The translations under genes were made by a program, and so were the position numbers. Shown here one piece after another: positions 10,079 to 25,631 of a DNA stretch of 44,554 bases. The notes beneath the pieces were generated by a model. It was not told where the DNA came from. It searched no databases and worked only from the letters and a program-made list of their open reading frames with translations. How positions within the stretch are numbered: position 1 is the stretch's first letter; each line of letters opens with the position of its first letter. The stretch is from an uncultured bacterium. Lineage in GTDB: Bacteria > UBP6 > UBA1177. The stretch spans positions 70,967 through 115,520 of the forward strand of contig CAJOMF010000001.1 in assembly GCA_905235605.1 (NCBI GenBank), written 5' to 3'.

Positions 10079-12358
10079 ATGCTTTATTATAATTATTTAA
10101 ACAGGCAAGAGATTTATGAAACCAACCGACTTTTGGGTAAAGGCGGTGAAGGCAGTGTTTACAGTATAAAAAACAACAAAAATTTGGTTTTAAAGGAGTT
10201 CTTTACTGCAAACCGTACAGGAGATCGTTATCAAAAGATATTGTTTATGGTTCAGCATCCCTTGAAAAGCAGTTATTTCCAGGCGGCATGGCCTTGTACG
10301 GTGGTTTGCGACAGCAGTTCTCAATTCGTGGGATATACAATGCCGTGTATTCCGATACAAGACAAAATAAATCAAATATATGAAGTGAATAGCAAATATG
10401 ATTTTAGGGACAGAGTTACTGTTGCGGCGAATCTTTGTGCAGCTATAGATTCTGTTCACAAATCCGGATATGTATGCGGTGATTTAAATCCAGAAAATAT
10501 CACTGCGAATCCAAATACAGGTGAAATAATTCTTCTTGATTGTGATTCATATCACGTTACGGATCATGCTTCTGGCAGGACATTCCGGTGTATTGTCGGC
10601 AGACCGGAAAACCTTCCTCCTGAAATATTGAAACGTATGACTAATGGAAAAACATTAGATAAATTAACCTTGCCGACCTTTACTATAGAATCCGATCTTT
10701 TTGCCTTGGCGGAACATATATTTGCTTTGTTGATGAACGGCTGTCATCCTTTTGCCTGTGCGAGCAGCAATCCGAATGTATTTCCTCAGCCGGTAGACAA
10801 TATTCGCAATGGTTTTACACCGTTTTTTCAAAAACAGTCTGGTTTAACGATTCCGGTTTATGCTCCTGAAATTTCAATACTTCCTAAAAACATTCAACAA
10901 TATTTTTTCAGAGCATTTGTTGACGGTAACAAGAATCCAAAAGCACGTCCGACAGCCGAAGAATGGTATATTGTTCTTAAGGAAATGAAAAAGCATCTCA
11001 ACTCATGTTCTAAGAACTCTCGTCATATATTTTCAGATCACTTAAGTAGTTGTCCTTGGTGTAAAGTTAATTCAAGAATAAATAGTGTTAATAACACACC
11101 GTTTAACAGTAATAGAAATCATCATCCGCAACCATATCCGATCCCACAACCACACCCGATTCAGCAACAGTATTCGAATTCTGCACATCAAAGATCTTCA
11201 AGTAATAATTCAGGATGCGTAATATTCTTTATTATAGCAATAGTTGTTGCCATAATAATATTTTTTGTCATGAATAATGATTCAAGTGGCGGTTATCACG
11301 CAGATGATAATTATAATAGTAACTATAGTGGGGAATACAAAAATAATAAAATTTGGTCTTCTCCTTCTTCACATACTATGAATTGGAAAGCAGCTGTTTC
11401 ATACTGTCGTAATCTTCGTGAAGGCGGTTATAATGATTGGAAACTCCCCAATATTGATGAATTACGTACGCTTATTCGAAATTGTTCTAACACTGTTGTA
11501 AATGGAAGATGCAGAGTTACAGAGAAATATAATTGTTTGTCAAATGATTGTTGGAATCCGAAAGGTTTTTGCTATTGTGATAGAGATACTTCTGGTTATT
11601 ACAGCAAGTATGGTGATGGAGGTTATTTCTGGTCATCTTCTGAGAATTCTTCGGATGCCGATTTTGCATGGGGAGTTAATTTTTATCGTGGAGGGGTAGA
11701 TAGCTATACTAGGTATAGTGATGAATATGGTCATGCCCGCTGTGTTAGATATGGGAATAATAGTTATTCAAATACTATTGGTTCGGTTAGTAGCAAAAAT
11801 AAGTATAGTTCTCAAGGCTCAAGTTCCAACAATTATAACACAAGTAGCAATCATAACACCAGTCAAACTACTAATAGTTATATGTGGTCGTCTCTTTCTT
11901 CCGACTACATGAGTTGGGAAAATGCGGTAAATTATTGTAGAAATCTTAGAGAAAATGGCTATTATGACTGGAGATTACCAACGATTGATGAGCTTAGAAC
12001 ACTTATAAAAAATTCTCCGAAAACAGAGATAAATGGTGCTTGTAAAGTAAGTGCAAAATCAGCTTGCTTATCAGAAGAAAAATGTTGGAGTATAGAAACA
12101 TGTGCCGCAGAGTGTGAAAAAGAAGCTGAGTGTGATAATTGTGATTTGATTTATTGGAATTGCAGAAATACTGCTTCTGATGGTAGATACAGCAAGAAAG
12201 GTGACAGAGAATCACTTTTCTCATCTTCTATCGTTAGCGAAAGTGTGGCTTGTACTTATGTCTGGTATGTAAATTTCGGGAATGGTAGTATTTTTAGTGG
12301 CGAAACAGAAGGAGATTGTATTTCGCTTTTATATTCATATGTCCGCTGTGTCAGATAA
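10079..12358 (+). CDS. Transmembrane protein kinase with two extracytoplasmic DUF1566/Lcl-type domains
   Basis: The 759-residue protein has a kinase domain at about 10-310: LGKGGEGSVY loop (18-27), Lys39 in LVLKEF, catalytic GDLNPEN (D135, N140), and LLDCDSY (154-156) in place of DFG. The GD.N...N and DCDS forms are those of the COG4248 kinases found in TerY-P triads. A Cys/His cluster (SCPWC) precedes a low-complexity linker and one membrane helix (about 379-399, CVIFFIIAIVVAIIIFFVM). Outside the membrane lie two DUF1566 domains (about 425-562 and 600-759), each with WKxAVxYCRNLRExGYxDWxLP and IDELRTLI. Each ends in a version of the RCVR signature and has several Cys. COG4248 kinases usually carry helix-hairpin-helix domains instead. 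GAAGG before ATG 10079 supports the start. The module likely couples external binding to Ser/Thr phosphorylation. Confidence 0.85.
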   Translation: MLYYNYLNRQEIYETNRLLGKGGEGSVYSIKNNKNLVLKEFFTANRTGDRYQKILFMVQHPLKSSYFQAAWPCTVVCDSSSQFVGYTMPCIPIQDKINQIYEVNSKYDFRDRVTVAANLCAAIDSVHKSGYVCGDLNPENITANPNTGEIILLDCDSYHVTDHASGRTFRCIVGRPENLPPEILKRMTNGKTLDKLTLPTFTIESDLFALAEHIFALLMNGCHPFACASSNPNVFPQPVDNIRNGFTPFFQKQSGLTIPVYAPEISILPKNIQQYFFRAFVDGNKNPKARPTAEEWYIVLKEMKKHLNSCSKNSRHIFSDHLSSCPWCKVNSRINSVNNTPFNSNRNHHPQPYPIPQPHPIQQQYSNSAHQRSSSNNSGCVIFFIIAIVVAIIIFFVMNNDSSGGYHADDNYNSNYSGEYKNNKIWSSPSSHTMNWKAAVSYCRNLREGGYNDWKLPNIDELRTLIRNCSNTVVNGRCRVTEKYNCLSNDCWNPKGFCYCDRDTSGYYSKYGDGGYFWSSSENSSDADFAWGVNFYRGGVDSYTRYSDEYGHARCVRYGNNSYSNTIGSVSSKNKYSSQGSSSNNYNTSSNHNTSQTTNSYMWSSLSSDYMSWENAVNYCRNLRENGYYDWRLPTIDELRTLIKNSPKTEINGACKVSAKSACLSEEKCWSIETCAAECEKEAECDNCDLIYWNCRNTASDGRYSKKGDRESLFSSSIVSESVACTYVWYVNFGNGSIFSGETEGDCISLLYSYVRCVR

Positions 12359-12406
12359 AAAAATATGTCAATATATTTTGATTTTTTGTCCAGAAATCCT
12401 TGACCA

Positions 12407-13324
12407 TTATAAACATCTCTTAGACCTAAATTCAACAGGTGTCATCCAATTCAGTTTTTTCTGAATCCGCCTGTTGTTATAATATTCAATAAATTCAAGG
12501 ATCATTCGTTCCATTTCCTTATAACTGAGAAGGCCGTTTTTCAAAGTGTCATAGTAATTTGTTTCTGATTTTACAGTCCCGAAAAACCGTTCCATACACG
12601 CATTGTCCCGGCAGTTTCCTTTGCGGCTCATGCTTTGAACAAGATTCAGTTCCTGTGACTGTTTTATTGCTTCCTCATACCGTTTGTCATAATTTTTCGG
12701 AATCATGGATTCTGTTGCCGTAACTGCGTTTTGATTGTTCTTGTTTTTAAAAAAGCTGCGGTAGGTGCTGTCCTGGTAAATTCCACCTTGATCAGAATGG
12801 ATCATAGTATCTTTCAACTTATATTTTCTTAACAATTCCACTAATGTATCACAAGAAAGCCTGTGATCCATTGTCGGTGACATGTTGGCAACAAGAACCG
12901 ATCCGTCGTGCTGATCCAGAACCGGGCTTAAATAAAGCCAGCCTTCCGTTACCTTGAAATACGAAACATCCGTGCTCAGTTTCTTTAACGGTTCGGCTGC
13001 TTTGAAATCGCGGTTAAGCTCGTTTTTCGGAAGATTCTCTTCATTTGCCTTCTGCGTTTTATAATAGTTCTTCGGGAACTTCCGTCTTCTGTTTGTTGTT
13101 TCTATACCGGCTTCTTTGCAGATTCTCGCTACTCGCTTGTGATTCACAGGTATCCCTTTCCTTTTCAACAGTTGCGACTTGCGTTTTGCTCCGCATTTAT
13201 TGATTTCTACCGGCTCAAGCTGCTTTATTGCTTCCAAAACCACAGCGTCTTTTTCTTTCCACAGCGCTTCGGATTTTTTCCCGTAATAAAAGGATGATCT
13301 CGGTATTTTTGTCGCTTTACACAT
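12407..13324 (-). CDS. IS3-family transposase OrfB (DDE integrase domain)
   Basis: The 305-residue catalytic protein has a helix-turn-helix/linker region (KQLEPVEINKCGAKRKSQLL) and then an rve integrase core. The catalytic residues are D119 (STDVSYF), D178 (HSDQG) and E245 (CMERFFGTVKSE). SMSRKGNCRDNA and YYNNRRIQKKLNWMTPVEF are classic IS3 blocks. Odd point: IS3 enzymes have about 35 residues between the second Asp and the Glu, whereas here there are 66, because about 31 extra residues (about 192-225) follow QDSTYRSFF. The extra segment stays in frame. Normal expression is probably as an OrfAB fusion through frameshifting at 13381-13389. Activity is uncertain because of the extra segment. 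Confidence 0.9.
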   Translation of the reverse strand: MCKATKIPRSSFYYGKKSEALWKEKDAVVLEAIKQLEPVEINKCGAKRKSQLLKRKGIPVNHKRVARICKEAGIETTNRRRKFPKNYYKTQKANEENLPKNELNRDFKAAEPLKKLSTDVSYFKVTEGWLYLSPVLDQHDGSVLVANMSPTMDHRLSCDTLVELLRKYKLKDTMIHSDQGGIYQDSTYRSFFKNKNNQNAVTATESMIPKNYDKRYEEAIKQSQELNLVQSMSRKGNCRDNACMERFFGTVKSETNYYDTLKNGLLSYKEMERMILEFIEYYNNRRIQKKLNWMTPVEFRSKRCL

Positions 13325-13335
13325 CTTTTTTACGC

Positions 13336-13704
13336 TTATTCCTTTTTGTTCGCAGTATTTTCCGAGACTTTTAACTGTGCTTTTTTTTTATTCTCTTCCT
13401 TAATCTGCTCCTTTAACTCGTTAGCGTAAAACTCCCAGAAATCTGCCGCAAGCATTGAAAGTTCAAGCTGTTTCTCAAGCTCATCGCGGCTCATCCCTTT
13501 GATTTCTTTGATGTTTTTCTTCCTCGTCTCAAATAGGTTTTTCTTCATTATATCTCCTTTCGAGCCGTAGGTTTTGACCCAGTCTCTAACAGTGTCACGC
13601 TTTAACCCGTGCCGTTTCGCCAATGTCAGATAACCGCCTAACCCGAACTCGTACTCTGTCAAAACCTGCTCACGCAACTCCAAAGGATAATGATTTACTC
13701 CCAT
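13336..13704 (-). CDS. IS3-family transposase OrfA (helix-turn-helix)
   Basis: The 122-residue DNA-binding protein begins MGVNHYPLELREQVLTEYEF, with a helix-turn-helix in YLTLAKRHGLKRDTVRDWVK. A helical segment rich in Glu and Lys follows that may mediate multimerisation. It binds the IS ends and regulates transposition. The gene ends 11 bp before orfB's ATG. An A9 run near its 3' end permits a -1 slip that joins it in frame to orfB. Confidence 0.85.
   Translation of the reverse strand: MGVNHYPLELREQVLTEYEFGLGGYLTLAKRHGLKRDTVRDWVKTYGSKGDIMKKNLFETRKKNIKEIKGMSRDELEKQLELSMLAADFWEFYANELKEQIKEENKKKAQLKVSENTANKKE
13381..13389 (-). other. Slippery A9 run for programmed -1 frameshifting in the IS3 element
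   Basis: Nine T on the plus strand are nine A in the orfA message. After a -1 slip the frame stays open and reads STVKSLGKYCEQKGISVKKM straight into the first Met of orfB. This is the usual way IS3 elements make their OrfAB transposase. Confidence 0.7.
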
Positions 13705-13770
13705 TTTTCCACCTCTCTTTAATGGGTGTCCAAACTTTGGGGGTCAGAACAGCGAGGAGAAATCAACAAT

Positions 13771-14715
13771 ATGGGGGATACCTTTTATGTGAAAGTTGTT
13801 TTTAACGCAGTAAGCCCTAGTCTTAGAAGGGTCACGGCTGGTAACTTTGACTGTGCCATTTCCGATTCGCTTGCCAAGTGTACCAGAGATTTCGCAAAAA
13901 AATTTTCTGAAGACCCAAATATCCTGGAAGAGGGAAAGCGGGCAAACACTGTTATTCAGCAGGAAAAGGAGAAACCGCACCTGATTTATGGTTTTCTTAA
14001 CGTTTTTCCGTCGGATATCGGCAGATATGAAAAGATCCCAAAAGAAATTATGAAAAAAATCAATGCAAGCGATGCATTTAAAGATCAAGATTGTGAAGAT
14101 TGGCGTGTTCCAACAGAAAACGAGATCGTTTTGCTTGCCAGTGAAGGTCTCATCTTAAAAACAGAAAATTACATGACTGATAAAACAGGTAATGGACACC
14201 TTAGACCTGTGGCAAGTTGCAAAAAATCAAAAGATAGTAATGAGGTTTTCTCCCAACAGAATTTGGTGAATTATAGCCAACCGGAAGTCATTTACGGTTT
14301 TCTCAAAGTTTTTCCAAAGGATATAGGCGAATATAATAGAAGACCGACAGAGATTGTGGAAAAGATCAATTCAAGCAGCGAATCTGGAATTTACGGCTGC
14401 AAAAACTGGCGTATTCCGACGGAAAACGAGGTCGCTTTGCTTGCAAGCAGAGGAATTGTCATAAAAGCGGAAGAGTATTTGTCCAGTAATGGAAAAAGTA
14501 AGGGTTCGCTTCGTCTGGTTGCGGATATGCCGGGATACGAGACTGAACCTGAAGAAGATACAGACAATAAAGACAACGAATCCTATGCGGACGAAAAACA
14601 TGACAATGTTGAAGAACCTGAATCTGGTGCAAAACTGAAACAGGATTCTCGGTCAAAACCAGAAAACTCTACAGTAAAACACTCTTCTAAAGGTTGTGCG
14701 GCAGATATCTTATAA
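13771..14715 (+). CDS. Protein with two degenerate DUF1566-like repeats, cytosolic
   Basis: The 314-residue protein has no signal peptide or membrane helix. Two tandem units of about 100 residues (about 70-150 and 168-258) each run from YGFLxVFPxDIGxYxxxPxEI through DWRVPTENEIVLLAS or NWRIPTENEVALLAS to LRPVAS/LRLVAD. The WR.PTE.E core resembles the DWRLP..DEL core of DUF1566 domains, but the Cys residues and the WSS and RCVR blocks are lost. The tail is acidic and low complexity. An in-frame extension upstream would start inside the IS3 end, so ATG 13771 with GAGGAG at 13754-13759 is preferred. It is probably a diverged paralogue of the neighbouring DUF1566 genes. Its function is unknown. 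Confidence 0.6.
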   Translation: MGDTFYVKVVFNAVSPSLRRVTAGNFDCAISDSLAKCTRDFAKKFSEDPNILEEGKRANTVIQQEKEKPHLIYGFLNVFPSDIGRYEKIPKEIMKKINASDAFKDQDCEDWRVPTENEIVLLASEGLILKTENYMTDKTGNGHLRPVASCKKSKDSNEVFSQQNLVNYSQPEVIYGFLKVFPKDIGEYNRRPTEIVEKINSSSESGIYGCKNWRIPTENEVALLASRGIVIKAEEYLSSNGKSKGSLRLVADMPGYETEPEEDTDNKDNESYADEKHDNVEEPESGAKLKQDSRSKPENSTVKHSSKGCAADIL

Positions 14716-14730
14716 TATAAAAAGGAGCAG

Positions 14731-14859
14731 ATGATGAAAAAATCCATGGTTTCAACATTTTTTGTTGTTTTGTTCGCGACATTGACAGTTTTTGCTCAGA
14801 AAGCTGGGAGTATTCAAGATCAGCAGGTCTGTGAATATATAATGCTCAAGTGTTTCTAA
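14731..14859 (+). CDS. 42-residue secreted peptide or truncated secreted protein
   Basis: AAAGGAG at 14721-14727 stands well before two adjacent ATGs (14731 and 14734). The product begins MMKKSMVSTFFVVLFATLTV and continues FAQ before KAGSIQDQQ. That is a textbook signal peptide with a likely cut after FAQ, leaving only about 20 residues to the TAA at 14857. Such a short mature part suggests the 5' stump of a longer exported protein whose remainder was lost when the adjacent island arrived. A genuine small exported peptide cannot be excluded. Confidence 0.5.
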   Translation: MMKKSMVSTFFVVLFATLTVFAQKAGSIQDQQVCEYIMLKCF

Positions 14860-15028
14860 ACAGAAAATTTCTCTCTCAAAGTGTTTTTCTCCCCACTGTC
14901 TAAATTATCTGCAAGACTAAGCAGAATGACATAGGAATAGATAAGAATATATTGCTTATAGCGAGTTGGCGAACACAGATGTTTAATATTTTCGTAATTT
15001 TGTTTAATACTATAATATTAAAAAAATA
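14860..15028 (+). other. AT-rich spacer at the left edge of the peptide-modification island, no gene seen
   Basis: No open frame with a ribosome site, no tRNA-like fold and no strong hairpin is visible. With the promoter and 5' leader that follow, it makes a 332-bp stretch before the peptide gene at 15192. It is a plausible junction zone between the truncated secreted gene and the imported cluster. Confidence 0.5.
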
Positions 15029-15056
15029 TTGACTGTATTTTCCGATAGAATATTGT
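15029..15056 (+). promoter_or_regulatory. Promoter of the peptide-modification cluster
   Basis: TTGACT (15029-15034), a 16-bp spacer and TATTGT (15051-15056) lie upstream of the peptide gene. Transcription from here would leave a 5' leader of about 130 nt before ATG 15192. Confidence 0.6.
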
Positions 15057-15191
15057 TGTTTGTGTTTTGGACAAGTACTCAGTAGTGAGGAAAGTCAGTC
15101 AATCTTGGGTGCAATTATGTGCCGAACGAATGCGTCAATTCGTGAACAACAAGTCTCAGCTGTGACGCTGGCTGAAAAAAGGAGTGCAAAC

Positions 15192-15314
15192 ATGAATTCA
15201 GAACAGGAATTCACCTTAGAGCTTGTGTGTGACGGTAATGCCGTATCAGGCGAGGTCAAGACGAGTCGATGCTGTCCAGGCGAATGCATTGAGGGCCCTG
15301 GTCAAAAAAAGTAG
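15192..15314 (+). CDS. Candidate RiPP precursor peptide, Cys-rich, 40 residues
   Basis: The peptide starts MNSEQEFTLELVCDGNAVSG and ends EVKTSRCCPGECIEGPGQKK. The acidic, hydrophobic first half (EFTLELV) looks like a leader. The second half holds C27, C28 and C32 in SRCCPGECIEGPG, with C13 further upstream. AGGAG at 15180-15184 supports this ATG; the frame is open upstream to 15060 but only with a TTG start and no ribosome site. It is followed by a strong hairpin and then two radical SAM/SPASM genes. That order (short peptide, attenuator, maturases) is typical of ribosomally made, modified peptides. Thioether, epimerised or glycosylated residues are all possible; the sequence does not decide. 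I recognise no known precursor family. Confidence 0.65.
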   Translation: MNSEQEFTLELVCDGNAVSGEVKTSRCCPGECIEGPGQKK

Positions 15315-15329
15315 GGTGACAGATGTTTG

Positions 15330-15370
15330 CGGCCACTGCGGTAAGCCGCGTGGCCGTTTTCAATTTTTTC
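15330..15370 (+). terminator. Hairpin attenuator between the precursor and maturase genes
   Basis: CGGCCAC-T-GCGG (15330-15341) pairs with CCGCGTGGCCG (15346-15356) around a TAAG loop, leaving one bulged T. TTTTCAATTTTTT follows. It starts 15 bp after the peptide stop codon and would keep precursor mRNA in excess over enzyme mRNA. Confidence 0.8.
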
Positions 15371-15386
15371 AAAGAAAGGAGGTTCT

Positions 15387-16625
15387 ATGCAAAACTATAA
15401 GTTAAATGGGGAAATTTATCTTGTTCGCGGTGCGGCGAAGAGTTGCGTCTACGATATAGGACACAATAAACTATTCTCCGTTGACAAATCTGTTGCTGAT
15501 ACGATTGAAAATGCTGTTTTGGGGAAAGAATATCCTCTCAAATCCGCTATTGTAGATGCATTGATGGCAAATGGCATTATTGTGCCATCAAATGAACCCA
15601 TGTCAGCCATGCCCTGCATTGGAGAATTGTTTGAAGGTATTGACCGTAAAATTGATTTTGCTTGGATAGAGGTGACAAATGTGTGCAATCTGAAATGCAG
15701 TCATTGCTACAATGAAACGAATCGTCCGTACCATCGATCTATGTCGTTTGCTGATTTCAAACATGTGTGCGATGAACTGGTTGCCTATGGTGTTTCGGAA
15801 ATCCAAATGATTGGTGGAGAACCGTTTATTATTCCGGAAGATCAACTTTTCCAAATGTTGTCATATGCTCACGAGAAATTCAAATCCATAGAACTATTCT
15901 TTAATGGTACTATGGTTTCTCGTGCACAATTAGAGTGGATTAAGGGAAATGTCCCTAAAACTCGTATTGCGCTTTCTTTACATTCTTTTATCGAGGAAGA
16001 ACAGGATAGGTTCGCACAGGTTCATGGTTCCTATAAGAAGATTACGGAAACACTAAAAAATCTTAAAGAGCTTGGTATAACATACCGTTATGTTGGTGTC
16101 TACTCATCTATGATAAAAGTTGGAGAAGAGTTAGATTTTGGTGTTCCTTACAAACGTGACTACATTCGCTTAACAGGTCGTGCCTCACTTCAACATTATG
16201 ACCGTAAACTGCTGAAAGAGCGCCTTAAAACACGTGACGTTTTTAAGTTTAATGACTTAAAGAAAACAATTTTGGACATTTGGTCATCCAATTGTTTTTC
16301 AAAGTATTTCTATATTTCCAGCGATCTCGAGGTTTATCCATGCGTAATGGAAAGGCGATTTTCCCATGGTAATTTAGCGGGGCGAGGACTAAATGAAATT
16401 GTGGATGCGTCTCTTTTGAATTTTTCAAAAGACAATGTTCGTGGATGTTGTGATTGTGAATATCGCTATGTCTGTCTTGATTGTCGTCCAGATTCAATTT
16501 CTGGAGATAAATATGAAAAACCATGGTTTTGTTTGTATGACGAACAAAATGGTGTATGGCGTGATGCCGATGTTCGTGCCGATGAACTATTGAAACTTGC
16601 GGAGCGGCCAATATGCGTGAAATGA
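15387..16625 (+). CDS. Radical SAM/SPASM peptide maturase
   Basis: The 412-residue enzyme has three parts. Residues 1-80 (YKLNGEIYLVRGAAKSCVYD; LFSVDKSVADTIENAV; LMANGIIVP) have the pattern of a PqqD-like leader-recognition (RRE) domain. The radical SAM core follows, with the 4Fe-4S motif C100-x3-C104-x2-C107 in VCNLKCSHCYNE and IQMIGGEPF as the GGE motif. The end is a SPASM-type auxiliary cluster region with C319 (YPCVMER) and C354, C355, C357, C363 and C366 (RGCCDCEYRYVCLDC). Such enzymes install thioether or C-C links, or epimerise residues, in RiPP precursors. AGGAGG upstream is very strong. It overlaps the next gene by 13 bp. The substrate is probably the 40-residue peptide at 15192. Confidence 0.88.
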   Translation: MQNYKLNGEIYLVRGAAKSCVYDIGHNKLFSVDKSVADTIENAVLGKEYPLKSAIVDALMANGIIVPSNEPMSAMPCIGELFEGIDRKIDFAWIEVTNVCNLKCSHCYNETNRPYHRSMSFADFKHVCDELVAYGVSEIQMIGGEPFIIPEDQLFQMLSYAHEKFKSIELFFNGTMVSRAQLEWIKGNVPKTRIALSLHSFIEEEQDRFAQVHGSYKKITETLKNLKELGITYRYVGVYSSMIKVGEELDFGVPYKRDYIRLTGRASLQHYDRKLLKERLKTRDVFKFNDLKKTILDIWSSNCFSKYFYISSDLEVYPCVMERRFSHGNLAGRGLNEIVDASLLNFSKDNVRGCCDCEYRYVCLDCRPDSISGDKYEKPWFCLYDEQNGVWRDADVRADELLKLAERPICVK

Positions 16626-18550
16626 CCATGTCAGGCGAGGTTTTAAGAGGATCGCGCGTGCATCTTCGCCCCTTTGATATAAAAACAGATGCGGCATATA
16701 TTTTCAGCATTTGTAGCAAAGAAGAAACAGTCAGGTTTTACGGAATGGAACCAATGAAATCTGTTGCGGAGGCCGAAAGACTTTTGTCGGCATATGCATC
16801 GGGAACTGCCGCAGGAACATCGTTGCATTGGGCAATCACAGATGCTGTAACTGACAAAGTCATCGGTGATGCTGGAATTATGTCCATAGACGCTAATAAC
16901 TATCGAGCGAGTTCATATTGTATTCTTGATGCACAGTATTGGGGAATGGGGTTGTCATACGATGCGATGAAAATGCTTTTTGATTATGTTTTTTCTACAA
17001 CAAATCTCAATCGTATCCATGCATATGTCGATAAAAGAAATAAGAGGACAATAAAAAGTGTTCAAGGAATTGGTTTTGTTCTCGAAGGCATTCTTCGTGA
17101 GTACGAATTCGATAAAGGTGAGTTTATAGACGATGCTGTTTTTTCACTAACACGCTCAGATTGGTGTAAAATTAGACATGCTGTATTCGGTGCTCGAGAA
17201 AGACAGGCTCGGCAAAAGTTTTCATGGCAGTATTATGAATTTGGTGATGAGCATTACGTATGGATTTTTGACGGCGAGAAACAACGATACCATCTTTTGA
17301 CAGGCCTGGATGCGGATAGATGGCTAAAAGCTGAGAATCCTATGATTCTGTTATGCGATGAAGGTTTCTCTACTAATGACGAACAAGTTATTCAATTCCT
17401 GTCAAGACTTAGGGTCGAGGATATCGTTTATGAAGTCCATTGGGATGTGACTAATGCTTGCAATTCCAAGTGCAAACATTGTTACAATTATGGTGCTCAC
17501 AATGGTAGCCGAGATTGTGTTGAAGGTGATATGTCAGATGATGAGTGTCGGGACTTGTTGAAAGCAATGCGCGAGAAAGGGGTATTTCGTATTGTATTCT
17601 CAGGGGGTGAGCCGCTAATACGAAAAGGCTTTTTGGAACTTGTGCGTGAGGCACGCGAACTAGGCTTCCAAGTTGTCATTTACACAAATGGTATTCTTGT
17701 GGATGAGGTGATTGCTGACCAAATAGCCAAACTTTGTCCGGTTTCAGTTGGAGTGAGTGCGTATGGAGCATCTGCAGCAACTCATGATGAGGTTACAGGA
17801 ATTTACGGATCTTTCGAGAAAAGTATGAACGCATTATGCCTTTTGTCTGAACGTGGTGTGCATACTGTTATGAAATGTGTGGTTCTTCACTCCAATTTTA
17901 AGGAAATAGCTGCAATGCGGACACTTGGTCTTCAAATTGCGGAAAATGTATATTTTAACTATATCTTTTATCCTAGCTTAGACAATGCGGTGGAAATGAA
18001 TGAACAGATGTTGCGAATGTCGGAAATAGTGACATTGGCATTGGAACCGGAGTCTGAAATCTATTTTGGAAAGCAATCACATCAGCTTTGTCGCTATGAA
18101 CCTAACAGAGATTATGTGTGTACGCAAGTGCAAAGGTCTTTATATTTGAACTCGCGGGGACAAGTATTTCCTTGTATTGCTGTTCCTTGTGCGGCGGGAA
18201 ACTGGAGAGGCTTTTTTACTAGAGCAAAGCGTTGTGCTGATGATGCGATACTGTCATATTGGCGAAAATTGAGGTTCTCCGATATTCCATTATGTGGAAA
18301 GCATGACTATTGTCTATTCTGTTATTCAGCATGTTCAGGTGATGGTTTGCTTGTAAACAGAGATGAACACTTGCCTCCAACAAACCATTGTCGCCTGGCA
18401 ATTGGAAGGTATGTTGCGTCAAGATTGAAGGTAATTCATCATAATAGTGAAGAAATAGCTGTCTTACAATTAAATGACAGTGTACTTGTTGATTATATGA
18501 GTTCTCTTGGGATTTCTAGAGATGAGTATGAGGTTAGAGGAATTCTCTGA
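16613..18550 (+). CDS. GNAT acetyltransferase-radical SAM/SPASM fusion
   Basis: The 645-residue fusion begins with a RimJ/RimL-type GNAT domain (about 15-190: LRGSRVHLRPF; YWGMGLSYDAMKMLFDYVF; NLNRIHAYVDKRNKRTIKS). Residues about 200-275 (YVWIFDGEKQRYHLLTGLDA; VIQFLSRLRVEDIVYE) look like a second PqqD-like recognition domain. The radical SAM core carries C283-x3-C287-x2-C290 (ACNSKCKHCYN) and FSGGEPL. The C-terminal region has SPASM-type Cys (FPCIAVPC; CGKHDYCLFCYSAC; NHC). It is translationally coupled, overlapping its neighbours by 13 bp and 1 bp. Presumably it acylates and oxidatively modifies the same peptide. A joint GNAT-radical SAM protein is unusual. The start at 16613 is favoured over internal Met codons by a weak GGAG and the overlap. 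Confidence 0.85.
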   Translation: MREMTMSGEVLRGSRVHLRPFDIKTDAAYIFSICSKEETVRFYGMEPMKSVAEAERLLSAYASGTAAGTSLHWAITDAVTDKVIGDAGIMSIDANNYRASSYCILDAQYWGMGLSYDAMKMLFDYVFSTTNLNRIHAYVDKRNKRTIKSVQGIGFVLEGILREYEFDKGEFIDDAVFSLTRSDWCKIRHAVFGARERQARQKFSWQYYEFGDEHYVWIFDGEKQRYHLLTGLDADRWLKAENPMILLCDEGFSTNDEQVIQFLSRLRVEDIVYEVHWDVTNACNSKCKHCYNYGAHNGSRDCVEGDMSDDECRDLLKAMREKGVFRIVFSGGEPLIRKGFLELVREARELGFQVVIYTNGILVDEVIADQIAKLCPVSVGVSAYGASAATHDEVTGIYGSFEKSMNALCLLSERGVHTVMKCVVLHSNFKEIAAMRTLGLQIAENVYFNYIFYPSLDNAVEMNEQMLRMSEIVTLALEPESEIYFGKQSHQLCRYEPNRDYVCTQVQRSLYLNSRGQVFPCIAVPCAAGNWRGFFTRAKRCADDAILSYWRKLRFSDIPLCGKHDYCLFCYSACSGDGLLVNRDEHLPPTNHCRLAIGRYVASRLKVIHHNSEEIAVLQLNDSVLVDYMSSLGISRDEYEVRGIL

Positions 18551-19578
18551 TGGAAGCTGAAACTCAAGAGAGAATTGTTTTATCAATTGTTATTCCTGTT
18601 TGGAATAGAGCTCATGAAATTGTTCACACCATTTGTTCTATAGTGCCTCAATTCACAGAATATAATGCAGAAATTATTGTTGTTGATGATGCTTCCTCTG
18701 ATGACACTGTTTCCATTGTCAAACGTCTTGCGAATGATTATCCGTGCATCAGGTTTTTACCTGTTTTGAAACATTGCGGTGCTGCTGCTGCTCGTAATAA
18801 GGGGCTAGAAATGGCCAGAGGCCGTTATATATGGTTTGTTGACTCGGACGATTTGGTTGCTGAAGGTGCCTTGCCCATAATAATGGCGGAATTAGAAAAG
18901 GGGGAGGCTGACATTCTCCGTTTTAATTGTGTCAAGATGTCAGAACGCCCGAAAGCTTATCGCATGGATGCTACATGGAATGTTGAGGTTAAGAAAATTG
19001 ATATCACTTCTGACTATGCTGCCTTTTATGCATTTTTGTGCTGGGGCAGTGTTTGGAATGCCATTTTTTCGCGAGAGCTCATCGGTGACACCAAGTTTGA
19101 TGAATCCTTTGCTTTCGGTGAGGACGCGCCATTTTCATGGAAATTGGCATCGCGTGCCAAGTCTTGCTTTTTTATTGACGCTCCCTTGTATGTTTATATG
19201 AATACGTTAGGCTCGATGACATCTCAGAAAACCGTGGAAAGATTTCGGTGCTATCTCCGGCAAATCGAAAAATTGCGTTATTTGACTGATTGTTCGGAGC
19301 TGAGGGAAGAATGGAAGAATTCTCTGAGGATCTCATGTCGCAATCGTGTATTCTCTCATGTTTTCTTTTGCTTTTCATGGAGCGAGATTAATTCGGAAAT
19401 GTGGAATGATTGGTTTCTTTTCTATAGGCGTTTTTTTGTTGAAGATTCAATGCGTCCGCTAACGAGGCGATTTCTATCAAAAATGCTTTTTGTTTTGAAT
19501 TCGCGTATAGCAGTTTATATAGTTTTTTTTCTGCGTTACGCTAAACTCCTAGCTTTAGGAAAAGTTCATCTTCCGTAA
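18550..19578 (+). CDS. GT-A (family 2) glycosyltransferase
   Basis: The 342-residue protein has an N-terminal GT2 domain: LSIVIPVWNRAHEI, IIVVDDASSDDT, GAAAARNKGLEMARGRYIWF and the metal/nucleotide site D98-S-D-D101. The GEDAPFSWKLASRA block is the acceptor-side acid region. The C-terminal third is basic and aromatic (HVFFCFSW; IVFFLRYAKLLALG) and may sit on the membrane surface, but no clear transmembrane helix is needed. It transfers a sugar from a nucleotide donor. The one-base TGATG overlap with the radical SAM gene argues that the acceptor is the modified peptide or a linked carrier. It is not in a polysaccharide locus. Confidence 0.88.
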   Translation: MEAETQERIVLSIVIPVWNRAHEIVHTICSIVPQFTEYNAEIIVVDDASSDDTVSIVKRLANDYPCIRFLPVLKHCGAAAARNKGLEMARGRYIWFVDSDDLVAEGALPIIMAELEKGEADILRFNCVKMSERPKAYRMDATWNVEVKKIDITSDYAAFYAFLCWGSVWNAIFSRELIGDTKFDESFAFGEDAPFSWKLASRAKSCFFIDAPLYVYMNTLGSMTSQKTVERFRCYLRQIEKLRYLTDCSELREEWKNSLRISCRNRVFSHVFFCFSWSEINSEMWNDWFLFYRRFFVEDSMRPLTRRFLSKMLFVLNSRIAVYIVFFLRYAKLLALGKVHLP

Positions 19579-19602
19579 AAAACAAGATTTGGGGTTGTCA
19601 AA

Positions 19603-20616
19603 ATGAAGGATGATATTTATCTGGTTGTTGACCAAGGGGCAAGCAAGACTATTGCTCTGGCTGTTTCACCTACAGGGAGCATTCTTGCGTTTGCCGATGA
19701 TTACGCACTTGTAAAAAATCACGGAAGAGAACGGATAGGTCCAGAAATCCGCTTGAAGTTTGTTGTTAGAAATTTGGTAGAAAAAATTGGCAACAGAAAT
19801 ATATGTTTTTCAAAATCATGTATTGCTGTTAATGGGATAAACACCCCGGAGGATGCGGAATCTTTTAGGAAAAGATTGCTTGGGATCGTTGCTTTTGGTG
19901 AAACGCTTATTATTAACGACAGTATTGCAGCCCTGCATGGGGGGTTCATTGAAATGCCGCAAGAGGAGAACCTTGTTGTTATTTGCGCTGGAACACGCTT
20001 TAATTGTCATGCAGAAACGGCAAAAGGAGGTGTTGCAACCTTGGGGTGGCGGGTTTCTTGTCAGGATCACGGAGCATTTGCACTAGGAGGGAAGGCTTGG
20101 GATGCTGCTGTTGATGGTTTTAACGGATTAAAGGCTGCTACGAAGTTGACGGATCTTTTCATTCGACATTTTTCAACTCCGGGGATGGATGCTCTTATGG
20201 AAGGATTTTTTTCTGGCGCAATTCCATTTGATACTCCTTCTTTTGCACCTTTGCTTTTCGATGCGGCATCGATTGAAGATGAAGTTGCTTTAGGCATTGT
20301 TGATATGTTTGCTTCAAGATGGGTGAGCTACGCCAAACTGTCATTGCAATTGGCTGGCGAAAAAGAACTGACGCATGGAAATATTGTACTTTCTGGAGGT
20401 GTTTTCAAATTTGACAGAGGATTTCTTCAAAAAGCCATTATGCTAAGCGCAAAAGAGAAATTACCATTATTTTCAATTTGTTGTGCACAGTTTGAACCTG
20501 TAGGTGGAGCCGCACTTTTCCTTTTCCGGAAAATATATGACAAAGCTAAAATGAGAGGTATTGCAAAGGAGTTTTCTTCTTCGTATTTGCAGAAGATAAA
20601 AATGAGACACTTATAA
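19603..20616 (+). CDS. BadF/BadG-superfamily ATPase, GlcNAc-kinase-like
   Basis: The 337-residue ASKHA-fold protein has the phosphate-1 loop in YLVVDQGASKTIALAVSPTG, the Asp-bearing IINDSIAALHGG, an adenosine-site ICAGTRFNCHAE, and GWRVSCQDHGAFALGGKAWD, which corresponds to the GG.G...GDEGSA block of N-acetylglucosamine kinases. IVLSGGVFKF and GGAALFLFRK close the fold. It lacks the CxxG 4Fe-4S Cys of dehydratase activators, so a sugar kinase is more likely. It begins 24 bp after the glycosyltransferase and ends the island. It could supply or phosphorylate the sugar used for peptide glycosylation, or act on a peptide-borne sugar. Substrate unknown. Confidence 0.75.
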   Translation: MKDDIYLVVDQGASKTIALAVSPTGSILAFADDYALVKNHGRERIGPEIRLKFVVRNLVEKIGNRNICFSKSCIAVNGINTPEDAESFRKRLLGIVAFGETLIINDSIAALHGGFIEMPQEENLVVICAGTRFNCHAETAKGGVATLGWRVSCQDHGAFALGGKAWDAAVDGFNGLKAATKLTDLFIRHFSTPGMDALMEGFFSGAIPFDTPSFAPLLFDAASIEDEVALGIVDMFASRWVSYAKLSLQLAGEKELTHGNIVLSGGVFKFDRGFLQKAIMLSAKEKLPLFSICCAQFEPVGGAALFLFRKIYDKAKMRGIAKEFSSSYLQKIKMRHL

Positions 20617-20680
20617 GTGAGAAGAATATAGATTAAATTCTTTCTGTAAATTAATTATCACCTGATTTTTGTAGATTATA

Positions 20681-20709
20681 TTCCAAAAATATGTATAGCA
20701 GTTTATATG
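20681..20709 (+). promoter_or_regulatory. Weak candidate promoter of the LRR/Sel1 gene group
   Basis: TTCCAA (20681-20686), a 17-bp spacer and TATATG (20704-20709) lie in the 147-bp AT-rich gap after the island. The match is poor at both hexamers. Confidence 0.3.
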
Positions 20710-20763
20710 TGATTTCGGGGGTAGAAATTCTGCAAAAATAGATGAGAAAAACCGGAGGGCAAA

Positions 20764-21774
20764 ATGTTATCTGAAGAAAAGAGCAGCAGCGTTATTTATT
20801 ACGAGGCTTATGGCAAAATAGAGAGTGAGTGGGTTGAAAAGAATTCTCTTTCGCACGATTTTACAAGCGGTAAGGGAAGGATCGTACTCAAGAAATCAGT
20901 AAGAAAAATAGGTAATTACGCATTCAGCGATTGTTCTTGGCTGATATCGGTGATTATTCCCGATTCTGTGACAAAAATCGGAGATCATGCTTTTGAATAC
21001 TGCATTTTTATGGAAAAGATTATTATAGGTAATTCGGTAGAGAAAATCGGAGAATCTGCGTTTTTGCAGTATTTTGATATTGAATCGGTAGTTATTCCTG
21101 ATTCTGTTAAACAAATCGGAAACGATGCTTTTTCTGATCGCAGGAGTCTGACCTCGGTTAAGATCCCGTGCAGTGTTACAAAAATTGGAAGCAATGCTTT
21201 TTTGAATTGTACAGGGCTTTTGTCTCTGTCGATTCCCGATTCTGTAACAGAAATTAAAAGTTACGCTTTTGCAGGCTGCAAGAGTCTCGAGAATATAAAG
21301 TTGGGTAAAAATGTTAAAAAAATAGGAGAAAATATCTTTTGCGACTGTCTTTCTTTAGATTACATAAGAGTGTCTGAATTCAACGGAAAATATGATTCCA
21401 GAGACGACTGCATGGCTGTAATAGAAACTGCAACGAATACGCTCGTGGCAGGATGCAAAGGGACTGTAATACCGAATTCGGTTAAAAAAATCGGAAAGTG
21501 CGCTTTTAGTGCTTGTAAAACTCTGGCATCCTTAAAAATTCCTAATTCTGTAACGGAAATAGGGCAAGAGGCCTTCAGCAGGTGCGATTGCCTGACATTG
21601 GTTGAAATTCCGGATTCAGTGAAGAAAATAGGCAGCAGAGCTTTCAGTTTTTGCAAACACCTGTCATTTGTCATAATCCCGGATTCTGTTGAAATAGGGG
21701 AGGATGCATTTATCGGTTGCGATGATTTGTCTGAGGAATCGAAAATCAGAATACGCGAAATGCAAGAGAAATAG
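20764..21774 (+). CDS. BspA-type leucine-rich repeat protein (LRR_5)
   Basis: The 336-residue protein contains about ten repeats of about 23 residues with the pattern I.IPDSVTKIG..AF..C..L. (for example VIIPDSVTKIGDHAFEYC). This is the Treponema/BspA-like LRR_5 family, whose members often bind host or other bacterial surfaces. One repeat is interrupted near residue 200 (EFNGKYDSRDDCMAVIETAT), a known irregular BspA unit. I see no signal peptide or membrane anchor, so secretion is unproven and it may act in the cytoplasm. CGGAGGG upstream supports the start. It overlaps the next coding frame only if an unlikely early start is used there. Confidence 0.88.
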   Translation: MLSEEKSSSVIYYEAYGKIESEWVEKNSLSHDFTSGKGRIVLKKSVRKIGNYAFSDCSWLISVIIPDSVTKIGDHAFEYCIFMEKIIIGNSVEKIGESAFLQYFDIESVVIPDSVKQIGNDAFSDRRSLTSVKIPCSVTKIGSNAFLNCTGLLSLSIPDSVTEIKSYAFAGCKSLENIKLGKNVKKIGENIFCDCLSLDYIRVSEFNGKYDSRDDCMAVIETATNTLVAGCKGTVIPNSVKKIGKCAFSACKTLASLKIPNSVTEIGQEAFSRCDCLTLVEIPDSVKKIGSRAFSFCKHLSFVIIPDSVEIGEDAFIGCDDLSEESKIRIREMQEK

Positions 21775-21791
21775 TGATATCGGAGGCTTTT

Positions 21792-24689
21792 ATGTCAAGC
21801 GAAACGAAAAAAGGCCCAAATCCAGAGCCTGACGATAAAACATTCGATTTTAACAAGTATCTGGAAGCGGCGGAGCGGGGAGACGCCGAAGCTCAGTACA
21901 AGGTTGCCGAATATTATTACAATTCAAATGAAAAATCTGAAACTGTTGACGAGGAAGAAGTTGAAGGATCGGATAACCCGGAAAAAGAGAGCGGTGGCAG
22001 CGAAGCTGGAGAAATATTCAGAGAGGTAGAGAATGCTGACAGCAAAGAGGCTGATGGAAAGGACAATAAGGAAGAAAAGAAAGAAGATATCGTCAGAAAA
22101 AACAAAATTGAAGCCTTTAAATGGTATGTGAAGGCAGCAGGGCAGGGATATGCCGATGCGCAGTATATGGTCGGCGAATGTTACTTGAACGGAGTCGGAG
22201 CTGAAAAGAACAAAATCCAAGCCTCCAGATGGTTCAAAAAGGCTGCCGAGCAAGGTCATGCAAAGGCCAAATATAAGATAGGAGAGGGTTATTTAAATCG
22301 GAACGGAGTCGAAATCGAAGCCTTCAAGTGGTTTATGGAAGCAGCAGAACTCGGTCTTGCTGAGGCTCAATATAAAGTCGGATACTGTTACTATTATGGA
22401 AAAGGAATCGAAAGAGAAAAAGCAGAAGCCTTTAAATGGTTCGTGAAGGCTGCAGAACAGGGACAGGCTGATGCCCAGTATATGCTCGGAGAATGTTATT
22501 CCCTTGGAGAAGGTGTTCAGGAAGACAGAATCGAAGCCTTCAAATGGTATGAGAAAGCGGCAGAGCAGGGAAAACGTCTTGCCCAGTTAAAACTTGGTAA
22601 TTGCTGCTGGAACGGGAAAGGGGTTCCTATAGATAAAAAAGAGGCCCGCAAGTGGTGGTTGAAAGCTGTTGATCCGGTGACAAAAGTGCTGGGAAAAATC
22701 GGAACGTTCATTGGGTATGCGTTGCTGGTGATTTTCGAATTGCTGATACTTGCAGTTGTTCTGTTTTATGCGGTAAAATTCATAGGCTGGGTATTTAATA
22801 TAGATTTCAGTTCTTCAGCATCAAAAATTACAGGGATTGTGAAACGTCCGTACTACGATGTTTCGATGTGTATGGATGCAAGAAGAGAAAACTCTATTGA
22901 ATATTGGAAAGGCTATCTTAAAAAATTCCCGGAAGGATGGTGTGCTGTCGAAGCGCAATCTGCACTTAATAATATGAAAAAAACGGGTACTCTTGAATGG
23001 TCGGAACTTTTTTCTTCCGAAGAAGAGATTTCGTGGTATGAGGCTCTGGAGTATTGCGACAAACTTGAGGAAGACGGATATTCGGACTGGAGGCTGCCTA
23101 ATATCGACGAACTCAGGATGCTTATAAAAAACTGTCCGGCAACGGAATCTGGAGGTAAATGTCAAGTCAGGGAGGATGCTCTCTGTCTTTTCCCTGACTG
23201 CGCAAATTCATGTTCCTGTGAAGCACAAGAGAATAACGGAGATTATTACAGTAAACTGGGCGACAGCATGGGTTTATGGTCTTTCTCATCCGACTCGTCT
23301 TTGCCTGCTAATGCGTGGGTTGTTGATTTTGACTCTGGCGGGATTGAAGGCGCGATCAAGGATGAGGGATGGATAAAAAATGTCCGCTGTGTAAGACAGG
23401 ATGACCACGATGCCTGTGAAACGGCCAAAAAATATGAGCAAAATTTTTATTGGTATTTTTATCTGGACAAATTTCCGAACGGCGAATGTGCCGGTGAAGC
23501 GAAAGCTTTCAAAGACAAAGAAGATGAAAAGGCTTGCGATGAAGCAAGAAGCCTGGATGTCAGATTCGGATGGGAATTGTATTTAAGAGGGTTTTCAGAC
23601 GGAAAATGTGCGGAAGAAGGAAACTTAGCAAAAAATAAATTCGGGAAAATTGATGGTTTCGAATGGTCGGATGTGTCAACTGCACCAATGTTAAGTTTCG
23701 AATCGGCTGAGTATTGCAAAAATCTTGAGGAAAACGGTCATGATGACTGGAGACTGCCGAATATCGATGAACTCAGAACGCTGATTAAGAATCATCCAGG
23801 AACTGTTCCAGGCGGAAGGTGCAGGGTTTCTGAAGAATATGAAAAAACAACGATCGATTTTGACTTGACGGAAAGTTGCAAGGGAACAGATGTAGGGATT
23901 TTTAGTAAACTGGGGGATTTTTTAGAACTTTGGTCTTCAACAGTAGCTTGGACAACTACTTATACAGAGGCCTATGGGCAAGATATATGGCTGGTAGATT
24001 TCGGCAGCGGCGGAATCAATGCTGATAACAGCAATAATGTTAAATATCATGTCCGCTGTATCCGTCAGGATGATGCTGATGCCTGTGAAAAAGCCCGAAA
24101 TGATCAAACAGCTTATTCCTGGAAGCGCTATCTCGAATATTTTCCTGAAGGCGAATGTGCGGATGAAGCAAATGCCGGCCCTAAAGACGAGGTCGTCTGC
24201 AAAAGAGCAAGACAGATCAATACCCGCGCTGAATGGGAATCTTATTTACATGATTTCCCGAATGGAAAATGCGCGAAAGAAGCAAAAGTTGCCAAAAATA
24301 AATTTAAGAAAACAGGTAATCTTGAATGGTCCGATATATTGGAAGAAGGTGACTGCGATGATCTTGTCGAAGACGGTCATTCCGACTGGAGACTGCCAAA
24401 TATAGACGAGCTTAGATTGCTTGTTCAGAACCATCCTGGAACGATTTCAGGCGGAATATGCGACATCTCAGAAAAAAACGGTCAGCTTGATGATGAGTCC
24501 TGGGATGAGAATTGTGGTGGTATAGAAGGTGATAATTTCAGCAAATTTGGTGATACTGACTGGTTCAGGTCATCTTCCGTACATAATGATGATATATTTT
24601 GGGCAGTCTCTTTTGATGACGGTTCTATATATCCTTTTTCCGTTAACTTTTTTTCGTTAAAGACGCGCTGTGTCAGGAAAAATAAATAA
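21792..24689 (+). CDS. Sel1-repeat membrane protein with three extracytoplasmic DUF1566/Lcl-type domains
   Basis: The 965-residue protein starts at ATG 21792, set by GGAGG at 21782-21786. Residues 1-300 are cytoplasmic: one Sel1 unit (EAAERGDAEAQYKVAEYYYN), an acidic insert, and at least five more units such as WFVKAAEQGQADAQYMLGEC. A membrane helix follows (about 310-335, YALLVIFELLILAVVLFYAV). Outside the membrane are three DUF1566 domains (DWRLPNIDELR...; each ends in RCVR or RCIR), separated by five copies of a short W..YL..FP.G.CA.EA motif. Sel1 repeats bind partners inside the cell. DUF1566 domains are thought to bind ligands outside; the Legionella Lcl C-terminal domain binds glycosaminoglycans. 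The topology parallels the kinase at 10079, with Sel1 units in place of the kinase. Confidence 0.85.
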   Translation: MSSETKKGPNPEPDDKTFDFNKYLEAAERGDAEAQYKVAEYYYNSNEKSETVDEEEVEGSDNPEKESGGSEAGEIFREVENADSKEADGKDNKEEKKEDIVRKNKIEAFKWYVKAAGQGYADAQYMVGECYLNGVGAEKNKIQASRWFKKAAEQGHAKAKYKIGEGYLNRNGVEIEAFKWFMEAAELGLAEAQYKVGYCYYYGKGIEREKAEAFKWFVKAAEQGQADAQYMLGECYSLGEGVQEDRIEAFKWYEKAAEQGKRLAQLKLGNCCWNGKGVPIDKKEARKWWLKAVDPVTKVLGKIGTFIGYALLVIFELLILAVVLFYAVKFIGWVFNIDFSSSASKITGIVKRPYYDVSMCMDARRENSIEYWKGYLKKFPEGWCAVEAQSALNNMKKTGTLEWSELFSSEEEISWYEALEYCDKLEEDGYSDWRLPNIDELRMLIKNCPATESGGKCQVREDALCLFPDCANSCSCEAQENNGDYYSKLGDSMGLWSFSSDSSLPANAWVVDFDSGGIEGAIKDEGWIKNVRCVRQDDHDACETAKKYEQNFYWYFYLDKFPNGECAGEAKAFKDKEDEKACDEARSLDVRFGWELYLRGFSDGKCAEEGNLAKNKFGKIDGFEWSDVSTAPMLSFESAEYCKNLEENGHDDWRLPNIDELRTLIKNHPGTVPGGRCRVSEEYEKTTIDFDLTESCKGTDVGIFSKLGDFLELWSSTVAWTTTYTEAYGQDIWLVDFGSGGINADNSNNVKYHVRCIRQDDADACEKARNDQTAYSWKRYLEYFPEGECADEANAGPKDEVVCKRARQINTRAEWESYLHDFPNGKCAKEAKVAKNKFKKTGNLEWSDILEEGDCDDLVEDGHSDWRLPNIDELRLLVQNHPGTISGGICDISEKNGQLDDESWDENCGGIEGDNFSKFGDTDWFRSSSVHNDDIFWAVSFDDGSIYPFSVNFFSLKTRCVRKNK

Positions 24690-24704
24690 TCAGGAGGTTC
24701 GGTC

Positions 24705-25631
24705 ATGGCAAAAAAGGAAGTCAAAAATAACAAAGTAAGCCTTGAGCAGGAATTCGCACGCTGGCTGGAAACGGCGGAGCAGGGAGACGCTGAAGCGCAG
24801 AACGAGGTCGGCGAGTGTTACTATGATGGCAAAGGAGTCGAACAAAACTTTGGGAAGGCCTTCAAGTGGTGGAAGAAAGCGGCTGATCAGGGGCTCGCCG
24901 AGGCTCAGAAGAATGTCGGATGGTGTTATGATGTCGGAGACGGGGTAAAGGAAAATAAAAAAGAGGCTGCCAAGTGGTATAAGAAAGCGGCTGAACAGGG
25001 AAATCTCAAAGCTCTTAATAATCTCGGTAATTTTTATTTTGACGGAGAGGGCGTAAAGGAAAACAAGAAAGAAGCTTTCAATTGTTATAAGAAAGCCGCG
25101 GAAGGAGGTCTTGCGGCAGCTCAGAATAATCTTGCAAGGTGTTACCTTAGCGGGGAAGGTGTCAACGAAAACCAAAAAGAAGCTTTCAAATGGTGTAAGA
25201 AAGCGGCTAAAGCAGGCGATGCTGTTGCTCAAATGAATCTCGGCATGTTTTATGAAAATGGTATTGAAGTTAAAGAAGATAAAGCTGAGGCTTTCAAGTG
25301 GTATATGAAGGCTGCTGAACAAGGTCATGCGGAAGCTCAATATTATGTCGGTATGTGTTACGCCAATGGCTGGGGCTGCGAGAAAAACGATGAAGAAGCT
25401 TTTGAATGGTTCTTGAAATCGGCTGAACAGGATTATGCTGATGCTCAGTTCAAAGTCAGCCAATGCTATGCTTCAGGTTTTGGAACAGACATGGATCTTA
25501 TACAAAGCGCGGCTTGGAGAGTGCGGGCAGCCAGAAACGGACATGAAGAATCTCAAACAATACTTGCCGCATCATTGATGAAGGCTCAGGAACTACTGAA
25601 CATGATGCGTAGAGATGACGATGATGAATGA
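24705..25631 (+). CDS. Sel1-repeat protein
   Basis: The 308-residue soluble protein is built of about seven tandem 36-residue Sel1 repeats (for example WWKKAADQGLAEAQKNVGWC and WYMKAAEQGHAEAQYYVGMC). These TPR-like helical pairs form a protein-binding scaffold. The short N-terminus is basic, and there is no signal peptide or membrane segment. The strong AGGAGG site starts 14 bases before the start codon. It follows the Sel1/DUF1566 protein by 15 bp and closely resembles its N-terminal half, so it probably arose by duplication and may bind the same partner. Confidence 0.9.
   Translation: MAKKEVKNNKVSLEQEFARWLETAEQGDAEAQNEVGECYYDGKGVEQNFGKAFKWWKKAADQGLAEAQKNVGWCYDVGDGVKENKKEAAKWYKKAAEQGNLKALNNLGNFYFDGEGVKENKKEAFNCYKKAAEGGLAAAQNNLARCYLSGEGVNENQKEAFKWCKKAAKAGDAVAQMNLGMFYENGIEVKEDKAEAFKWYMKAAEQGHAEAQYYVGMCYANGWGCEKNDEEAFEWFLKSAEQDYADAQFKVSQCYASGFGTDMDLIQSAAWRVRAARNGHEESQTILAASLMKAQELLNMMRRDDDDE

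Follow-up and report, generated by a model that had tools for sequence, protein, structure and literature searches.

A short open reading frame (ORF) for a 40-residue peptide and the radical SAM/SPASM gene that follows it (rSAM1) very probably encode a RiPP precursor and its maturase, as judged from the sequences. This reading follows from a conserved core motif in the peptide, the family of Cys-x-Pro (CxP) peptides to which it belongs, the confident predicted fold of rSAM1 and a near-full-length match of this enzyme to CteB, and we consider it likely that rSAM1 matures the precursor at its CxP site. The genes lie in the window, i.e. the whole stretch of 44,554 nucleotides that was analysed, which corresponds to C1:70967-115520 of a 2.67-Mb draft genome from a small phylum with 28 genomes, the host included. 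The features are as follows:

15179..15184, + strand: ribosome site AAGGAG, 7 nt before the precursor ATG, read in the sequence
15192..15314, + strand: precursor peptide, 40 aa, MNSEQEFTLELVCDGNAVSGEVKTSRCCPGECIEGPGQKK; an ORF whose core motif is repeated upstream of the nearest rSAM1 homologues
15329..15357 (about), + strand: hairpin with a T-rich tail, between precursor and enzymes (z -1.66)
15387..16625, + strand: rSAM1, 412 aa, with RRE-like N-terminal domain, radical SAM and SPASM; proposed CxP-peptide maturase (Pfam, homologues, model)
16613..18550, + strand: rSAM2, a GNAT-rSAM fusion of 645 aa with SPASM-type cysteines; an RRE-like middle region is uncertain
18550..19578, + strand: GT2 glycosyltransferase, 342 aa (Pfam PF00535, E 2.7e-31; PDB matches)
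19603..20616, + strand: BadF/NagK-like ATPase of sugar kinase fold, 337 aa (weak family match)

The 40-residue ORF, its ribosome site, the hairpin and the four enzyme genes had been read from the DNA in a preliminary description, and all were present at these positions. The first three enzyme genes overlap, as it had noted: rSAM1 and rSAM2 by 13 bp, and rSAM2 and GT2 by 1 bp. A gap of 24 bp separates GT2 from the BadF-like gene. The hairpin is not exceptional by itself at its z of -1.66. Hairpins of differing sequence occupy the same position at the homologous loci L046, L055, L056 and L057 and, as read by eye, at G1120. We infer that it is an attenuator or partial terminator, through which more precursor than enzyme would be produced.

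The precursor has cysteines at positions 13, 27, 28 and 32, a leader-like segment FTLELVCDGN (residues 7-16) and a core-like segment SRCCPGECI (residues 25-33), and C27-C28-P29 is its one CxP. The three rSAM1 homologues closest among those found, all from rumen Bacteroidia (46-48 % identity), each have a short ORF ending in RCCP[GH]EYI upstream. The two closest among the matches listed, L055 and L056 (48 % and 46 %), have MATKEDFEEATKKVEEMIKEIDSKPTPPSGSGMDYPERCCPHEYIR and MGKKEEFERATKKVEDMIKEVSKPTATTSGFGHARPDRCCPGEYIGR just upstream, with the endings ...RCCPHEYIR and ...RCCPGEYIGR, respectively. At G1120 (46 %), which was found via the enzyme alone after the motif had been defined, MGKKEDFEEGTRKVEEMIKEIDSKPSSPSSGSGMDYPDRCCPHEYIR with the ending ...RCCPHEYIR lies at the same upstream place. 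On a plasmid of Photobacterium toruni (L046), a 33-residue ORF ending in SCAPGDCNPVN and then a hairpin precede a full-length rSAM1 homologue (23 % identity, 93 % coverage in tblastn). The preliminary description had made its reading depend on a conserved short ORF in front of homologous rSAM1 genes, and these peptides are such ORFs. The motif C-x-P-[GH]-[DE], which lies immediately before the rSAM1 homologue on the Photobacterium plasmid and in each of the three nearest relatives, occurs 33 times in the 3.08 million six-frame residues of all DNA examined, and about 0.003 occurrences would be expected by chance per 300-bp upstream region. L055, L056 and G1120 come from one bacterial family and are thus not fully independent, while the Photobacterium locus is independent. 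Based on their peptide sequences, the window, L055 and L056 form a single-CxP subclass without a second CxP. Both of these nearest relatives have a second short ORF further upstream (L055 about 8575-8752, MSDVKEVIETTHEDGTQSFTVITENGG...; L056 about 8549-8713, MAKDLQEIIEKENSDGTVTYTAINTDGD...), which is absent as such from the window.

The wider family was collected with an alignment of two enzymes (window and Photobacterium) and four short hand-written SPASM-motif fragments as the query; the fragments only widened the search pattern, and tblastn with the window enzyme served to confirm the matches. The collection scan gave at least 80 rSAM1 loci, and 60 other genomes and two Bacteroidia groups were searched besides. 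Distant rSAM1 homologues (25-43 % identity) adjoin peptides rich in CxP, for example MLELECLTDELFLNISEFECGPSCFPDNACVPENRWCGPTQ and the CWPRQQ repeats of Pelosinus. Where the enzyme was full-length (66 loci), two or more CxP were present in 55 of the 273 short ORFs on the same strand within 700 bp of rSAM1 (20 %), compared to 12 of 2857 farther off (0.4 %), and 46 of the 66 loci had at least one such ORF; the window, L055 and L056, having a single CxP, were not counted as positives. CxP accounted for 493 of the 538 cysteines (92 %) in 70 such peptides, drawn from 56 loci, a share that is somewhat inflated because the peptides were chosen for having at least two CxP. In these peptides Cys and Pro are invariant, x is free, the +3 residue is most often R or D, and few CxP cysteines (39 of 493) have an acid at C+4. 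Most relatives of the window peptide have several CxP, and their leaders (MFELELMTN, MFTLECVSE, IELVT) resemble FTLELVCDGN. The hosts include Bacteroidia, Clostridia, Negativicutes, Synergistota, Patescibacteria, Planctomycetota, Latescibacterota and Acidobacteria among the bacteria, and Bathyarchaeota and Woesearchaeota among the archaea. No NCBIfam family was reached by any peptide tested, and in Pfam the peptides tested gave chance-level matches only, far below cut-off.

Some members of the family have features of their own. In Sporomusaceae and other Negativicutes (L090, L111, L113, L117, L118, L120-L122, L125-L127, L133 and L134) the rSAM1 homologue is in most cases accompanied by a long CxP-repeat peptide (CWPRQQ, CNPxC) and has genes reading as clpP, clpX, lon and tig as neighbours, and this fixed place suggests a housekeeping role rather than that of a bacteriocin. 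The CxP peptides of L059 and L066 have a double-glycine-type leader (...LDKVSGG) and those of L079, L081 and L114 have Tat- or signal-peptide-like N-termini, which suggests export of some family members. It had been remarked earlier that no exporter or protease gene is visible in the window; no such family recurs at the loci of the relatives either. The rSAMs of L049-L051 (AhbD-like by resemblance), from unrelated genomes, were dropped, as no CxP[DEN]C peptide was found beside them.

Pfam recognises Radical_SAM and SPASM in rSAM1, the latter just under its cut-off, and the CX3CX2C and SPASM cysteines are invariant or nearly so in 49 homologues. The AlphaFold2 model built from 49 sequences had a mean pLDDT of 93, and residues 1-70 form strands and then helices at high pLDDT, an order which we take to be the RRE topology. 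The top Foldseek matches were SkfB, SuiB and CteB, of which SkfB was the best PDB match by both sequence and fold. In the profile search CteB aligned over positions 19-391 (5e-21) and SkfB over the core (3e-34). A check for a PqqD-type RRE, proposed in the preliminary description, gave a divided answer: the strands and helices of the model and the alignment with CteB from position 19 agree with such a domain, while the Pfam PqqD signal itself was weak (E 0.074 in 3 of 21 sequences). On the strength of the model, rSAM1 is predicted to have an RRE-like leader-binding domain. The locus has the general attributes of a radical SAM RiPP, i.e. a conserved short precursor gene, an RRE-like domain (by structure) and the CX3CX2C and SPASM cysteines, together with those of the CxP family, i.e. 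rSAM1 homology and one CxP in the neighbouring short peptide. A viperin-type defence function was considered and rejected, since the PADLOC matches (52 bits for rSAM1, 72 bits for rSAM2) cover the radical SAM core only and viperin-like NCBIfam scores were below cut-off. Scans of viral contigs with rSAM1 gave no relative.

The RRE-rSAM-SPASM architecture of rSAM1 is common to the ranthipeptide maturases CteB (SCIFF) and PapB, and the rSAM1 family profile aligns with CteB over nearly the full length. PapB cross-links C-X3-D/E spacings (PMC9413430), which are also present in the CCPGE/CAPGD subclass. However, the substrate motif of the rSAM1 family differs from that of CteB and PapB, being Cys-x-Pro mostly without an acid at +4, and rSAM1 scored 43 bits against a cut-off of 340 for the PapB-type family NF047865. 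NCBIfam scores of rSAM1 were far under every equivalog cut-off. Among the sactipeptide maturases SkfB, AlbA and StsB, SkfB gave the best PDB match for rSAM1 and StsB the best NCBIfam profile for rSAM2, with all scores far below the equivalog cut-offs. To our knowledge no CxP rule applies to the peptides of these three enzymes. The grasp-with-SPASM maturase (TIGR04193) resembles the L090 and L056 homologues in the SPASM region (119 and 61 bits, cut-off 175), but no second gene recurs at the CxP loci as a possible grasp partner. A GT2 in an rSAM-peptide operon is shared with mycofactocin, but the GT2 of the window scored 70 bits against MftF (cut-off 280) and its peptide does not represent a mycofactocin precursor. 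The score against the Cys-rich peptide system CcpM (TIGR04068) was 46.6 bits, with a cut-off of 500.

Downstream of rSAM1, Pfam finds Acetyltransf_3 and Radical_SAM in rSAM2. This enzyme has a GNAT domain of RimJ/SpeG type, keeps most SPASM-type cysteines in the alignment and has StsB as its best NCBIfam profile. Between the GNAT and rSAM parts the model places three strands and three helices, at a pLDDT of 34-50, and a profile comparison of this region with the rSAM1 RRE was not significant. GT2 carries the Pfam domain Glycos_transf_2. The BadF-like protein matched BcrAD_BadFG (E 1.7e-4, below its cut-off), the NagK profile (6e-6, far below cut-off) and, in the PDB, GlcNAc/MurNAc kinase and hexokinase (2e-5 and 8e-5), and its assignment as a kinase is weak. 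About 1,050 genomes were searched for the GNAT-rSAM fusion, and it was not found; the search covered 28 genomes of the phylum, 33 domain-wide and 16 of rSAM1 relatives, and samples of 393, 394 and 188 genomes from orders or the phylum of rSAM1 relatives, one sample matching nothing and thus being without positive control. Conservation of a GNAT and a GT with the precursor, as in a glycosylated or acetylated RiPP, was not found among the at least 80 loci listed. Recombinase-associated rSAMs on plasmids of Photobacterium damselae and E. coli (L047, L048) were set aside, as they match rSAM2 in the rSAM/SPASM part only; these genes adjoin a recombinase gene, which resembles the arrangement of recombinase, rSAM and peptide that PMC9062424 mentions. 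The window is not alone in having a version of the system with two rSAMs: in Photobacterium toruni a second, smaller rSAM/SPASM gene (L046:9131-10066) overlaps the rSAM1 homologue.

A search of 60 other genomes, the 27 others of the phylum among them, gave no full-length rSAM1 homologue, and the remaining matches in them were mostly core-only and below about 40 % identity. The 27 phylum genomes likewise had no close match to the GNAT-rSAM fusion or the BadF-like gene. From these comparisons the peptide-enzyme gene set looks accessory in the host. It is flanked by an IS3-type element and Lcl_C/Sel1/LRR genes, and the mraZ-ftsZ division cluster (ORFs read by eye) lies downstream. The IS3-type element (window 12407-13704, - strand) has two ORFs, with integrase-core domains confirmed in the larger, and lies about 1.5 kb upstream of the precursor. 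Genes for Lcl_C, Sel1, BspA-LRR and protein-kinase proteins cluster at window 10079-25628 with the RiPP genes inside, and this cluster is bounded by ORFs read as uppS and by the mraZ-ftsZ cluster. An MmeI-type IIG restriction-modification enzyme is encoded at window 380-3340.

In the proposed mechanism rSAM1 would bind the leader (FTLELVCDGN) through its N-terminal RRE-like domain and modify the CxP site in the C-terminal SRCCPGEC, most likely by forming a carbon-sulfur (thioether) bond from a cysteine of the site. We give a cysteine thioether as the product roughly even chances. For the CCPGE subclass a candidate acceptor is Glu31, which stands at the C-X3-E spacing relative to Cys27. As an acid is rare at C+4 family-wide, the general reaction cannot be the formation of a Cys-Glu thioether; either it needs no acid or the CCPGE/CAPGD subclass differs. 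It is rather unlikely that rSAM1 instead makes another CxP-directed change (epimerisation, proline oxidation or a C-C bond) and leaves the cysteines free for metal or disulfide. The invariance of Cys and Pro beside widely varying x and +3 positions would suit such a change, and metal binding or a structural polymer would be conceivable for those family peptides with more than ten CxP repeats, whereas SkfB, CteB and SuiB, the solved proteins nearest to rSAM1 in profile and fold searches, are thioether or C-C cross-linking maturases. That the short ORF arose by chance, and that the substrate of rSAM1 is a protein or small molecule, is very improbable: the ORF is short, its GC3 is above that of the neighbouring genes and a weak hairpin alone proves nothing, but the core motif is conserved upstream of the homologues, also at G1120 with its later discovery, and CxP is strongly enriched next to the rSAM1 family.

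The GNAT-rSAM fusion, GT2 and the kinase, if co-transcribed with the precursor and rSAM1, would tailor the peptide by a second radical step, acetylation, sugar transfer and sugar phosphorylation, and we lean slightly towards such tailoring. As the relatives have no counterpart of these genes beside them, it is their position in the operon that suggests these steps. Of the preliminary description, the pairing of precursor and maturase is thus upheld by the conserved core and the CxP family, while for the other three enzymes gene order was the support found. There is a lesser, still appreciable, chance that only the precursor and rSAM1 constitute the CxP RiPP and that the other genes serve another pathway, e.g. 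for a surface glycan or small molecule, from the same operon. The three genes stand beside none of the at least 80 rSAM1 homologues listed, peptide and rSAM alone are the usual unit at the loci of the relatives, and GT2 and the kinase resemble glycan enzymes. However, the coding overlaps of 13 bp and 1 bp suggest one unit, as does the lack of close rSAM2 or BadF matches in the phylum, and rSAM2 is itself of a peptide-maturase type (StsB-like).

Peptides matured by radical SAM enzymes are, as a kind, already known. The pairing of CxP peptides with an rSAM was found in no curated library tested, nor in the open-access literature searched, and no description of GNAT-rSAM or sugar-kinase RiPPs was found in the literature searched, which was mostly open-access. 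The CxP pairing may be contained in the unnamed clusters that published SPASM enzyme networks show (PMC9062424). We tentatively propose a large family of CxP-core RiPPs with its own rSAM/SPASM maturase, spread over many bacterial phyla and archaea and sharing a common, so far unseen CxP modification, of which the window would be a rare branch with a GNAT-rSAM, a glycosyltransferase and a sugar kinase decorating a single-CxP peptide. Should the tailoring genes act on the same peptide, it would carry acetyl and sugar groups as well, which would be unusual for an rSAM peptide. A minimal substrate for learning the reaction of rSAM1 is offered by the short single-CxP subclass (RCCPGE), and the CxP rule beside one enzyme family provides a testable substrate code for maturases whose peptides lack a Pfam or NCBIfam model.
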